Of a stretch of DNA of 49,084 nucleotides, positions 7,621-14,552 are shown piece by piece. Origin of the DNA: Gammaproteobacteria bacterium (GTDB taxonomy: Bacteria > Pseudomonadota > Gammaproteobacteria > HK1); NCBI GenBank assembly GCA_018224385.1, contig JAGTVB010000109.1, forward strand, positions 1 through 49,084, read 5' to 3'. How positions within the stretch are numbered: the stretch's first letter is position 1; the number at the start of each line of letters is the position of its first letter. The notes under the pieces were generated by a model, which was given only the letters and a program-made list of their open reading frames with translations, had not been told where the DNA came from and ran no database searches. The position numbers were made by a program, and so were the translations under genes.

Positions 7621-7769
7621 TAGACTGAGGTATGGAGCATCTTAGGCTTGCAGGTCATAATGATGGCGGATGAAGTACAATCGGTATATTAGAATATAAT
7701 GATACCCATGAAATGGGGGGCTTTGTCGGTGCTAAGTCAGCTTTAGCGCTTAGCGCTACTTAGCTTATT

Positions 7770-7786
7770 CCGGGCAAGCCCGGTTT
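7770..7786 (+). terminator. Short GC hairpin followed by T-rich stretch upstream of rpoE
   Basis: CCGGGC-AA-GCCCGG then TTTCTT; preceded by TAGCGC-TTA-GCGCTA dyad at 7744-7758. Confidence 0.35.
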
Positions 7787-7951
7787 CTTGGGAGCCTTCA
7801 GACGCTTGAGCCAGCGCGGTGCGGAAAGGCGCGAAGTTGTCCGCGGGCTGAGGGGACCCGATGCGGGCCCCTCCTCGATGCGAACTATATCCAGATGCCT
7901 TGGTCTACGACAGTAGCAAGGAGCGCGGAGCCGGAAAAGAGGACAGCCCGG

Positions 7952-10286: not shown

Positions 10287-11729
10287 ATGCCGCGCGTACC
10301 GGTGATTCGACAGGCAATGATGCTGATGGGCGCGGTGGCGGTTGCGCTGCTTGCGTGCCTGCCCCCCGCCGCGGCGCGAAATTTGCCCGAATTCACTCGG
10401 CTCGTAGAGCAGCAACGCGCTTGCGTCGTCAATATCAGTACGTCCCAGAGACAGTCGTTATCCCTCTCTGGGCCGGACGAAGGGACACCATTCCACGGCT
10501 TCTCTGAGGACGCGCCGTTTAACGACTTTCTCGATCGGTTCTTCGGGGAAGGCGAACGGGATGGGTTTGAACCCGAATTGCTGGGATCGGGTTTCATCGT
10601 ATCAGAAGACGGCTATGTGCTCACCAACCATCACGTGGTCGAAAATGCCGACGAGATTAGGGTGCGGCTCAGTGATCGTCGGGAATTCGACGCGCGTGTC
10701 ATCGGGGCTGACCGACGCAGCGACATTGCGCTGCTCAAAATCGAGTCGCAAATACCTTTGCCAGCGGTCAAATTGAGGGTACCAACCCACCTCCAGGTGG
10801 GAGAGTGGGTGCTCGCCATAGGATCACCCTTCGGCTTCGAGCACTCTGTGACAGCGGGCATTGTGAGTGCCAAGGGGCGCAGCTTGCCTAGGGAGAGCTA
10901 CGTGCCATTTATACAGACCGATGTGGCCATCAATCCCGGTAACTCCGGTGGGCCGCTGTTCAATCTCGATGGAGAAGTCGTTGGGGTTAACTCACAAATT
11001 TTCAGCCGCGCCGGTGGGTTCATGGGGTTATCTTTCGCAATCCCCATCGATGTCGTTATGGAGGTCGCTGACCAACTGCGCACCACAGGGCATGTTTCTC
11101 GAGGTTGGCTTGGGGTGTTGATTCAGGATATCGGCGGCGATCTGGCGGAGTCGTTCAGAATGGATAAGCCCGAGGGCGCACTGGTCGCCAAGGTCCTTAG
11201 CGGCAGCCCTGCTGAACGGGCCGGATTGAGAGTCGGCGACGTCGTTGTCGCCTTTAACGAGCATTCCATTGACCGTGCCGCTGATCTACCGCCGATGGTT
11301 GCTCGAACCCCAGCGAACACTCAGATACTCGTCAGTATTGTTCGAGGCGGTACGCTGCAATCACTACCCGTCGTCGTCGGTGAGCTACCGGAGGATGAGG
11401 GCATACGGCCAAAGCCAGCCACGCCGCGGGCAGAAAAAAGGATGAACAACGACTTGCTCGGGTTAGCGGTGGTTGATTTGACGGCGGAACAGCGCGTCCG
11501 CTACACGCTACCCGAGCATGGCGTGTTGATCGAGCGGGTGGAACCCGGCCCGGCTCAGCAAGCAGGTATTCGTACCGGCGACATTCTGCTGTTGCTCGAT
11601 GGCGTGGAAGTAACGAACCGTGACGAGTTCGAAAGGCTGGTAGCGGGTTTGCCGGCGGGTAAGGCGGTTTCTGCGTTAGTTCAGCGTGGCCGCTATCCCC
11701 TGTTTGTCGCCCTCAAGCGACCTCAATAG
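10287..11729 (+). CDS. mucD: Do-family periplasmic serine protease (MucD/DegP)
   Basis: 480 aa; GSGFIVSEDGYVLTNHHVVENADEI; TDVAINPGNSGGPLFNLDGEVVGVNSQI catalytic Ser motif; two PDZ domains. Confidence 0.95.
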   Translation: MPRVPVIRQAMMLMGAVAVALLACLPPAAARNLPEFTRLVEQQRACVVNISTSQRQSLSLSGPDEGTPFHGFSEDAPFNDFLDRFFGEGERDGFEPELLGSGFIVSEDGYVLTNHHVVENADEIRVRLSDRREFDARVIGADRRSDIALLKIESQIPLPAVKLRVPTHLQVGEWVLAIGSPFGFEHSVTAGIVSAKGRSLPRESYVPFIQTDVAINPGNSGGPLFNLDGEVVGVNSQIFSRAGGFMGLSFAIPIDVVMEVADQLRTTGHVSRGWLGVLIQDIGGDLAESFRMDKPEGALVAKVLSGSPAERAGLRVGDVVVAFNEHSIDRAADLPPMVARTPANTQILVSIVRGGTLQSLPVVVGELPEDEGIRPKPATPRAEKRMNNDLLGLAVVDLTAEQRVRYTLPEHGVLIERVEPGPAQQAGIRTGDILLLLDGVEVTNRDEFERLVAGLPAGKAVSALVQRGRYPLFVALKRPQ

Positions 11730-11765
11730 ACCGCAGAGGCTTGGCCATTTCTGAAAGGAACTGGA

Positions 11766-11915
11766 CTAAACGCCTCTTAACAATCACACTATGTACCACC
11801 TAGCGCATGTCGAATGGTCACAGACGATGGCGGAGCGCCCCGTGACGGTGACCATCAAACAAGTGTGAGCGACAGATTTGTACTGTTTAGAGGGCGTTTA
11901 GCGACGCCCTTTTTT
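11766..11915 (+). promoter_or_regulatory. Candidate attenuator-like leader upstream of lepA
   Basis: CTAAACGCC (11766-11774) is the exact reverse complement of GGCGTTTAG (11893-11901), which overlaps the terminator left arm; central 8 bp stem ATGGTCAC/GTGACCAT. Confidence 0.45.
11891..11915 (+). terminator. Intrinsic terminator between mucD and lepA
   Basis: AGGGCGT-TTAGCG-ACGCCCT followed by TTTTT. Confidence 0.75.
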
Positions 11916-11928
11916 CGTTCCCTCCTCT

Positions 11929-13725
11929 ATGCAGCATATTCGAAACTTCTCTATCATCGCCCACATTGATCACGGCAAATCCACTCTCGCGGATCGATTT
12001 ATTGAGATCTGTGGCGCATTGACAGCGCGGGAAATGGCAGAGCAAGTGCTGGATTCTATGGATCTTGAGCGGGAACGGGGCATTACCATCAAAGCCCAGA
12101 GCGTGACCTTAAGCTACCGATCCAGGGGAGGTGAAACCTATCAGCTGAACCTCATCGACACACCAGGACACGTCGATTTCTCCTACGAGGTATCCCGTTC
12201 CCTGGCCGCCTGCGAAGGCGCGCTGTTGGTCGTCGATGCGGCACAAGGGGTCGAGGCCCAGAGCCTGGCGAATTGCTACATTGCCTTGGAGCAGGGCCTG
12301 GAGGTGATCCCGGTGTTGAACAAGATCGATCTACCGAATGCAGAGCCGGACCGAACGGCGGCTGAGATCGAAGATCTCATCGGATTGGAAGCCCGCGACG
12401 CCGTTCGAGTGAGTGCGAAAACAGGGGCGGGCGTAGCCGATCTTCTCGAGATCCTCATTCAACGGATCCCTGCGCCCACCGGCAGTGCGGCGGCGCCGCT
12501 GCAGGCACTCATCGTTGATTCATGGTTTGATAATTATGTCGGCGTGGTCTCGCTGGTTCGGGTCGTGAATGGAGAAATTAAGGTCGGGCAACGTATCCAG
12601 GTCATGTCCACCGGCCGCAGTCACATCGTGGATCGGGTGGGTATCTCGGTTCCCAAGCCCCAAGACCTCGCGCGCTTGACAGCCGGTGAAGTCGGTTACG
12701 TCATCGCGGGGATCAAAGATGTGGACGGTGCGCCGGTTGGAGATACCATTACGGATGCGCGCCGTTTAGCATCGTCGTCATTGCCGGGATTTAAGGCCAG
12801 CAAACCCCAGGTCTATGCGGGCCTTTTTCCGACGGATTCGAAGGACTTTCAGGCGCTGCGCGAGGCGCTTGCGAAATTGCGCCTCAATGATTCTGCACTG
12901 CACTTTGAGCCTGAAGCATCGAGCGCGCTCGGGTTCGGCTTTCGATGCGGCTTTCTTGGCCTGCTTCATATGGAGATCGTGCAAGAGCGTCTAGAAAGAG
13001 AGTACGCCCTGACGCCAATTACCACGGCACCGAGCGTTGTCTACGAAGCGTTAAGCACCGATGGGAAGGTAAGCTACGTCGCCAATCCGGCCCAATTACC
13101 GCCTTCCAATCAACTCGTTGAGCTGCGCGAACCGATTGTTTTGGCTGATATCCTTGTGCCCGAGCGGTATGTCGGCAGTGTGATGACCCTATGCGTCGAG
13201 AAACGCGGAGTCCAAAAGCAGCTGCAGTACTTCGCCAGGCAGGTGTCACTGCGCTATGAATTGCCACTGAGCGAGGTGGTGTGGGATTTTTTTGATCGGC
13301 TGAAGTCGGTAAGCCGAGGTTATGCTTCATTGGATTATCATTTTGTGCGCTATCAACGCGCGGATTTGGTAAAACTCGACACCCTCATTAACGGTGAATG
13401 CGTGGATGCATTGTCGACTATTGTTCATCGGGATAAGAGCCATTTGGTTGGCCGTGAGGTAACGAGTAGTCTTCGAGCCATCATTCCTCGACAGATGTTC
13501 GATATCGCAATCCAGGCCGCTATCGGCTCTCAGATAGTGGCGCGGCAAACAGTAAAAGCCTTGCGCAAGAACGTGACTGCCAAATGCTATGGAGGTGATG
13601 TCACGCGCAAGCGCAAGCTGCTCGAAAAACAAAAGGCAGGTAAAAAGCGCATGAAACGGTTGGGTAAAATAGAGATACCTCAAGAGGCGTTCCATGCCGT
13701 GCTAAAGGTGGGGAAGGATCAATGA
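11929..13725 (+). CDS. lepA: Translation elongation factor 4 (LepA)
   Basis: 598 aa; [59 protein letters not shown]. Confidence 0.98.
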
Positions 13726-14552
13726 GGTTTGATTTCCCGACAATCATGGTCCTGTTGGTGGTCGTCACGGGCGCCATCTGGATGTTCGATGTGCTCGTGC
13801 TCGCGCCGCGTCGACGCCTAGCGATGGCTCGCTCTGGCGCGGGAGCGGGGACCGATAGGTCTAAAAGCGAAGCACTACCGCAGCCGGCACCGGTGCCGAA
13901 AATTGTTGAGTACGCACGCTCGTTCTTTCCCGTTTTTCTTATCGTGCTGATTGTGCGATCGTTTGTGGTAGAACCGTTTCGTATTCCTTCAGGCTCTATG
14001 ATGCCCACCCTTGAAATCGGCGATTTTATTCTTGTTAATAAGTTTTCGTACGGTATTCGTTTGCCCATTCTTGATAAGAAGGTCATTTCGATCGGGGACC
14101 CCAAACGTGGTGATGTCATGGTCTTTCGCTACCCCGAGGACCCCTCAACGCCTTTCATAAAACGCGTGGTGGGTTTGCCTGGCGATCGGATCGGATACTA
14201 CGATAAGGTACTGTACATCAACGGTGAGCCCGCCATGCAAGAACGGATCGGTATCTACACCGGGGCAGGGCGCGGAAGCAATATGATCGGCGCTAGCGAA
14301 CGCATTGAGCACCTGGCCTCTAAGGAGCACACGATCTTGATACAGCCAGGCTATCCTTCTTTGCCGACAGAAATGGTCGTCCCGCCAGGCACGTACTTCG
14401 TGCTCGGGGACAACCGCGACAATAGCCGCGATAGCCGTTACTGGGGTACCGTTCCAGATAAGTATCTGATTGGAAGGGCATTTCTTATCTGGATGAACTG
14501 GGACTGGGGATCGGGAATCGCTTGGAAGCGTATCGGCGAACCGATCCAATAG
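13722..14552 (+). CDS. lepB: Signal peptidase I
   Basis: [75 protein letters not shown] overlap with lepA. Confidence 0.97.

Follow-up and report, generated by a model that had tools for sequence, protein, structure and literature searches.

The gap between mucD and lepA raises a simple question: does the terminator-like hairpin that lies just before the lepA start codon act on the expression of lepA, or does it only close the operon upstream? We analysed this locus in a gammaproteobacterial contig (hereafter the window, i.e., the whole stretch of 49,084 nucleotides) and compared it with the lepA leaders of other genomes. The relevant features of the window, with coordinates and strand, are the following.

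10287-11729 (+): mucD-like serine protease (open reading frame; named from sequence and gene order)
11735-11777 (+): 5' local hairpin, AGAGGC/GCCTCT (minimum free energy fold; pair probability about 0.98)
11766-11774 (+): proposed antiterminator arm, CTAAACGCC (exact complement of 11893-11901; chance 0.0025-0.02)
11785-11795 (+): tentative lepA -10 region, CACACTATGTA (by-eye alignment with the sister-genus TATGAT; weak)
11814-11855 (+): central stable hairpin (P1) with the stem ATGGTCAC/GTGACCAT (-18.8 kcal/mol; within the segment with z -3.45)
11889-11915 (+): predicted intrinsic terminator of the lepA leader (pattern scan; -14 kcal/mol)
11929-13725 (+): lepA, elongation factor 4 (open reading frame, 598 aa; 74-75% identity to same-family orthologues)
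13722-14552 (+): lepB, signal peptidase I (open reading frame; named from sequence and gene order)

The mucD-lepA gap and its hairpins

The mucD-like gene is the last one of the upstream rpoE-rseA-rseB-mucD operon (the sigma-E operon). Since lepB overlaps lepA by 4 nt, we regard it as the downstream gene of the same operon as lepA. The first-pass annotation had given the gap between mucD and lepA as 199 nt, which is correct (mucD stop codon TAG at 11727-11729, lepA ATG at 11929), and had placed in it a clear intrinsic terminator and, further upstream, an internal stem. We recovered both. The terminator is composed of AGAGGGCGTT-TAGC-GACGCCCTTT and a T-run, with 10 pairs and a loop of 4, i.e., the GC-rich stem-loop followed directly by a U-tract that is typical of intrinsic (Rho-independent) terminators. 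The T-tract stops 13 nt short of the lepA ATG, and this is the only good terminator after mucD in the window. The internal stem (11814-11821/11848-11855) closes the central hairpin. None of 200 shuffles folds as well as the segment 11802-11915, and the terminator and the central hairpin exceed chance. The hairpin at 11889-11915 looks like a genuine transcription stop signal. The stretch that separates it from the lepA ATG (11916-11928) is CU-rich (CGTTCCCTCCTCT) and lacks a Shine-Dalgarno sequence; its pairing with AGAGGG in the left arm of the terminator would be possible.

The promoter scan from mucD to the hairpin gave nothing above chance (best score 4.6 vs a mean of 6.2 in shuffles), so that the incoming transcription may be read-through from mucD. 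Alternatively or additionally, the window terminator may close the sigma-E operon and let limited read-through pass into lepA. TATGTA at 11790 is a promoter candidate by its likeness to relatives, a by-eye match that the MAFFT alignment did not recover. We discarded a sigma-E promoter in the gap, where GGAACT is present at 11757 without a -10 element at the proper spacing. Elsewhere in the window, the rpoE leader (7690-7790) contains TATAAT and then a terminator-like hairpin, CCGGGCAAGCCCGGTTTCTTG. At 2885-2992 there is an intergenic, imperfect inverted repeat with 34-nt arms, which is REP- or MITE-like and dispersed: the genome of the window contains 40 matches to it, each with E below 1e-10.

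The proposed antiterminator

The first-pass annotation had also proposed a switch, in which the pairing of CTAAACGCC with GGCGTTTAG (11893-11901) would exclude the terminator. The complementarity is real: the two segments are exact reverse complements over 9 nt, and TCT/AGA lengthens the duplex beyond one bulged G, as had been described. Still, the match exceeds chance only modestly. Exact matches of at least 9 nt were found in 0.25% of 20,000 shuffled leaders, and a duplex energy equal to the best one had P = 0.02. The left arm has its strongest partner elsewhere, near 11835-11846, inside the central hairpin. Matches of at least 9 nt occur at 4 of the 83 terminator-like sites of the window, i.e., at the lepA-leader site and three others.

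Folding of the growing RNA gave a dominant antiterminator when the transcript ended at 11902 (probability 0.89), and a terminator and 5' hairpin that win from 11910 on, where the probability of the antiterminator falls to 0.0001-0.007; these are equilibrium values and not kinetics. The switch was not borne out by these results, since the finished terminator and the 5' local hairpin outcompete it. The latter hairpin is new relative to the earlier annotation. It results from the local pairing of GCCTCT (11772-11777) with AGAGGC (11735-11740), sequesters part of the proposed antiterminator arm, and exists only when transcription arrives from mucD.

The pairing was also absent from the nearest relatives that keep the terminator (P = 0.97 for L004 and P = 0.59 for L006), which belong to another genus; such an absence is what the first-pass annotation had named as counting against its proposal. 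Among the 57 lepA-leader terminators identified below there was no significant enrichment of antiterminators (KS p = 0.11). We therefore rejected the antiterminator as a general feature of lepA. An exclusive alternative pairing that is conserved or covarying in homologous leaders, as expected of an attenuator, was not found in the comparison with sister-genus leaders. The 9-nt pairing of the window is probably coincidental, judging from a nearest comparison that is a sister genus and not the same genus.

Recurrence of the terminator in lepA leaders

We identified an intrinsic terminator at most 70 nt upstream of the start codon in 57 of 210 distinct lepA leaders, vs 6.5% in dinucleotide shuffles and 8.6% in the opposite-strand control. 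Nearly three quarters of the lepA leaders lack such a terminator by the 70-nt criterion. The positives are taxonomically dispersed, with the 27 found among newly fetched regions being spread over 20 families. The controls were drawn from the window and from 100 regions, none longer than 16 kb. When the upstream gene is co-directional, the terminator is present at 24 of 66 lepA genes vs 17 of 235 neighbouring genes; when it is divergent, only one of 11 lepA genes has it. The succession of a promoter-like site (7 bits or above, upstream of the terminator), a terminator and a start codon was found for 17 of 77 lepA genes vs 2 of 437 neighbouring genes (Fisher p = 2.5e-13), p-values being optimistic here because the genomes were treated as independent though they are related. 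Both the promoter-like sites and termination at lepA leaders are predictions. The window itself has the terminator and the start codon of this proposed class, and the promoter is clear in the sister genus.

Many leaders have only 5-30 nt between the stem and the ATG, so that no promoter could fit after the terminator. RNAs that end at the terminator are predicted to be short, with a median of 54 nt, and to have 5-32 nt ahead of the stem in both well-sampled lineages; the window leader is longer. Hence, in most relatives there is too little RNA before the hairpin to fit an antiterminator or a leader peptide. A self-contained antiterminator is, on these predicted RNAs, not the general mechanism.

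Conservation within lineages

The nearest relatives of the window are three species of one sister genus, with LepA about 74-75% identical. Only these three species were usable for the analysis of covariation close to the window's own clade, one of them carrying an insertion. Their leaders contain a promoter (TTGGTG-17-TATGAT), a hairpin placed where the central hairpin of the window is, a GGGCG...CGCCC stem, and a T-rich tract some 11 nt upstream of the lepA start codon. In the first hairpin, two compensatory changes can be read by eye between L004 (CCGTGCC/GGCACGG) and L006 (CTGTGGC/GCCACAG). The insertion, of roughly 150 bp with terminal inverted repeats (GGGTGCCTCTAAAAATAC...GTATTTTTAGAGGTGCCC), is in the lepA leader L005 (genome G006). 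It falls between the first hairpin and the terminator, and the terminator stem still adjoins lepA.

Two lineages were sampled more deeply; the names that we give them, Burkholderiaceae-like and Methylophaga-like, are inferred from named loci that share their leader (L089, L118, L062). In the Burkholderiaceae-like family, a -10 element of the GGTAAAATG type precedes the terminator and then lepA in 56 of 70 leaders. The terminator has a conserved stem base (AAGGCGCTC/GAGCGC(C/T)TTTTT), a variable top and a retained T-tract, and lies at most 70 nt from lepA in 51 of the 70 leaders, extra sequence intervening in some lineages. There are few double-sided changes in these stems because their base hardly varies. 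The Methylophaga-like family has CGTAAAAT, 5-17 nt of predicted RNA, and the terminator (L267-L288, L356) in 22 leaders from two genera and in one leader from a third genus. Its stem shows 17 double-sided changes, a number reached by none of 500 shuffles and far above that of slid controls. The terminator is missing in four genomes of the main Methylophaga-like genus (L292, L340, L341, L355) and in nearly all genomes of another genus. A long U-tract directly after the stem is kept in both well-sampled lineages. The aligned leaders indicate that the terminator is conserved in two lineages, with clear compensatory stem changes in one of them.

Outside these groups, lepA of E. coli K-12 is preceded by a hairpin that lacks a U-tract. 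A DNA search gave matches mostly in the lepA coding sequence. Within family f1, to which the window belongs, LepA matches only other translation GTPases (best E about 1e-21) in several genomes (G002, G012, G015 and others, three of them single-contig), and the LepA of four more genomes is only 50-53% identical. It is possible, given these matches, that lepA was lost or replaced within the family.

Probable early termination and its alternatives

We tend to favour, with some reservation, the view that the untranslated leader of lepA-lepB contains an intrinsic terminator, the hairpin at 11889-11915, and that this is a local case of an arrangement that recurs in Gammaproteobacteria (Beta included). 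The recurrent order would be a promoter, an intrinsic terminator within tens of nucleotides, and the lepA start codon. A fraction of the transcripts would stop as a short leader RNA, and the remainder would read through to give LepA and LepB. If the predictions are right, this order, often with no space for a later promoter, implies that lepA is made by read-through. The leaders establish a predicted terminator at a non-random position, with conserved U-tracts and, in one lineage, compensatory stem changes. From these we infer termination in the cell and read-through as the source of lepA-lepB expression, and the operon is probably throttled by early termination. The efficiency of termination could be fixed, simply lowering the expression of lepA-lepB, or could be set by a trans factor. 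We consider it rather unlikely, if worth keeping in mind, that a control of read-through in trans, without an antiterminator RNA, operates in many Beta- and Gammaproteobacteria, e.g., through an elongation factor or in response to the state of the translation or secretion machinery. The earlier claim of a cis-regulatory leader is thus supported as regards a termination element, given its recurrent position and covariation in relatives, and unsupported as regards the specific terminator/antiterminator switch.

The hairpin might have no regulatory role and be the ordinary terminator at the end of rpoE-rseA-rseB-mucD, close to lepA by position, with lepA expressed from read-through or from an unrecognised promoter. 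This is a minority possibility that we take seriously, because no other good terminator follows mucD, the promoter search from mucD to the hairpin was empty in the window, and lepA terminators are found mainly with co-directional upstream genes. Yet, an insulator would not place promoter-like sites upstream of the terminator as frequently as observed for lepA relative to neighbouring genes, and other genes placed in this way have a nearby terminator five times less often. A classical attenuator, whose antiterminator (11766-11774/11893-11901) is switched by a ligand, a protein or a ribosome, would explain the exact 9-nt complement, its rarity in shuffles, its dominance with transcription at 11902, and the competing 5' hairpin, which makes a three-way attenuator layout. 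We regard it as improbable: the pairing nearly vanishes once the terminator is complete, equally long matches exist elsewhere in the window, the sister-genus leaders lack it, and there is no general antiterminator trend.

Promoter, short RNA and terminator are also the layout of a small RNA gene, and the good folding of 11802-11915 (z -3.45) would suit such a gene, or an RNA derived from the 3' end of the mucD transcript, that ends here and affects lepA incidentally. But in most lineages very little RNA precedes the hairpin, and this RNA is poorly conserved; the sequence is not common even to members of the family, and the position is fixed relative to lepA, which makes this improbable as well. 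Finally, the stem is often near the predicted 5' end and the ATG, as would be a 5'-terminal stem-loop that stabilises the lepA mRNA and does not terminate transcription. A stabiliser would not need the long U-tract that both well-sampled lineages keep, and this explanation seems to us very improbable.

Comparison with known systems

What LepA/EF4 does in the cell is a matter of long debate. A conserved early terminator before lepA-lepB would make the levels of a translation GTPase and of signal peptidase depend on a read-through step that can be measured, and would help to find the conditions where cells want more LepA. If read-through were controlled in trans, LepA/EF4 and signal peptidase I would have a common and so far undescribed point of control. 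In the open-access papers searched we found no account of lepA attenuation or of a leader terminator, and nothing on the regulation of the lepA gene; with this coverage of the literature, novelty is provisional. Rfam covariance models gave no match at the gathering score in the window leader or in 16 related loci. The model of the antisense RNA AsrC (RF02746) overlaps the start region of lepA. It is unrelated to the leader; its only match was sub-threshold, on the opposite strand over the lepA coding sequence (17.3 bits vs a cut-off of 111).

Term-seq in E. coli has mapped premature termination in 5' UTRs (PMC7815308). As in those cases, 3' ends of the lepA leader RNA would be expected in the 5' UTR, upstream of the start codon; the text of that study does not mention lepA, which in E. 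coli lacks the U-tract. Leaders of the trp/his type, terminator riboswitches and protein-responsive leaders also have an intrinsic terminator in the 5' leader before the first gene of the operon. Unlike those attenuators, the lepA leader has no supported antiterminator and no known aptamer, and in most relatives the RNA preceding the stem is too short for an antiterminator or a leader peptide. The lepA leader terminator would, as far as its sequence indicates, work like a leader attenuator that stands outside the antiterminator class.
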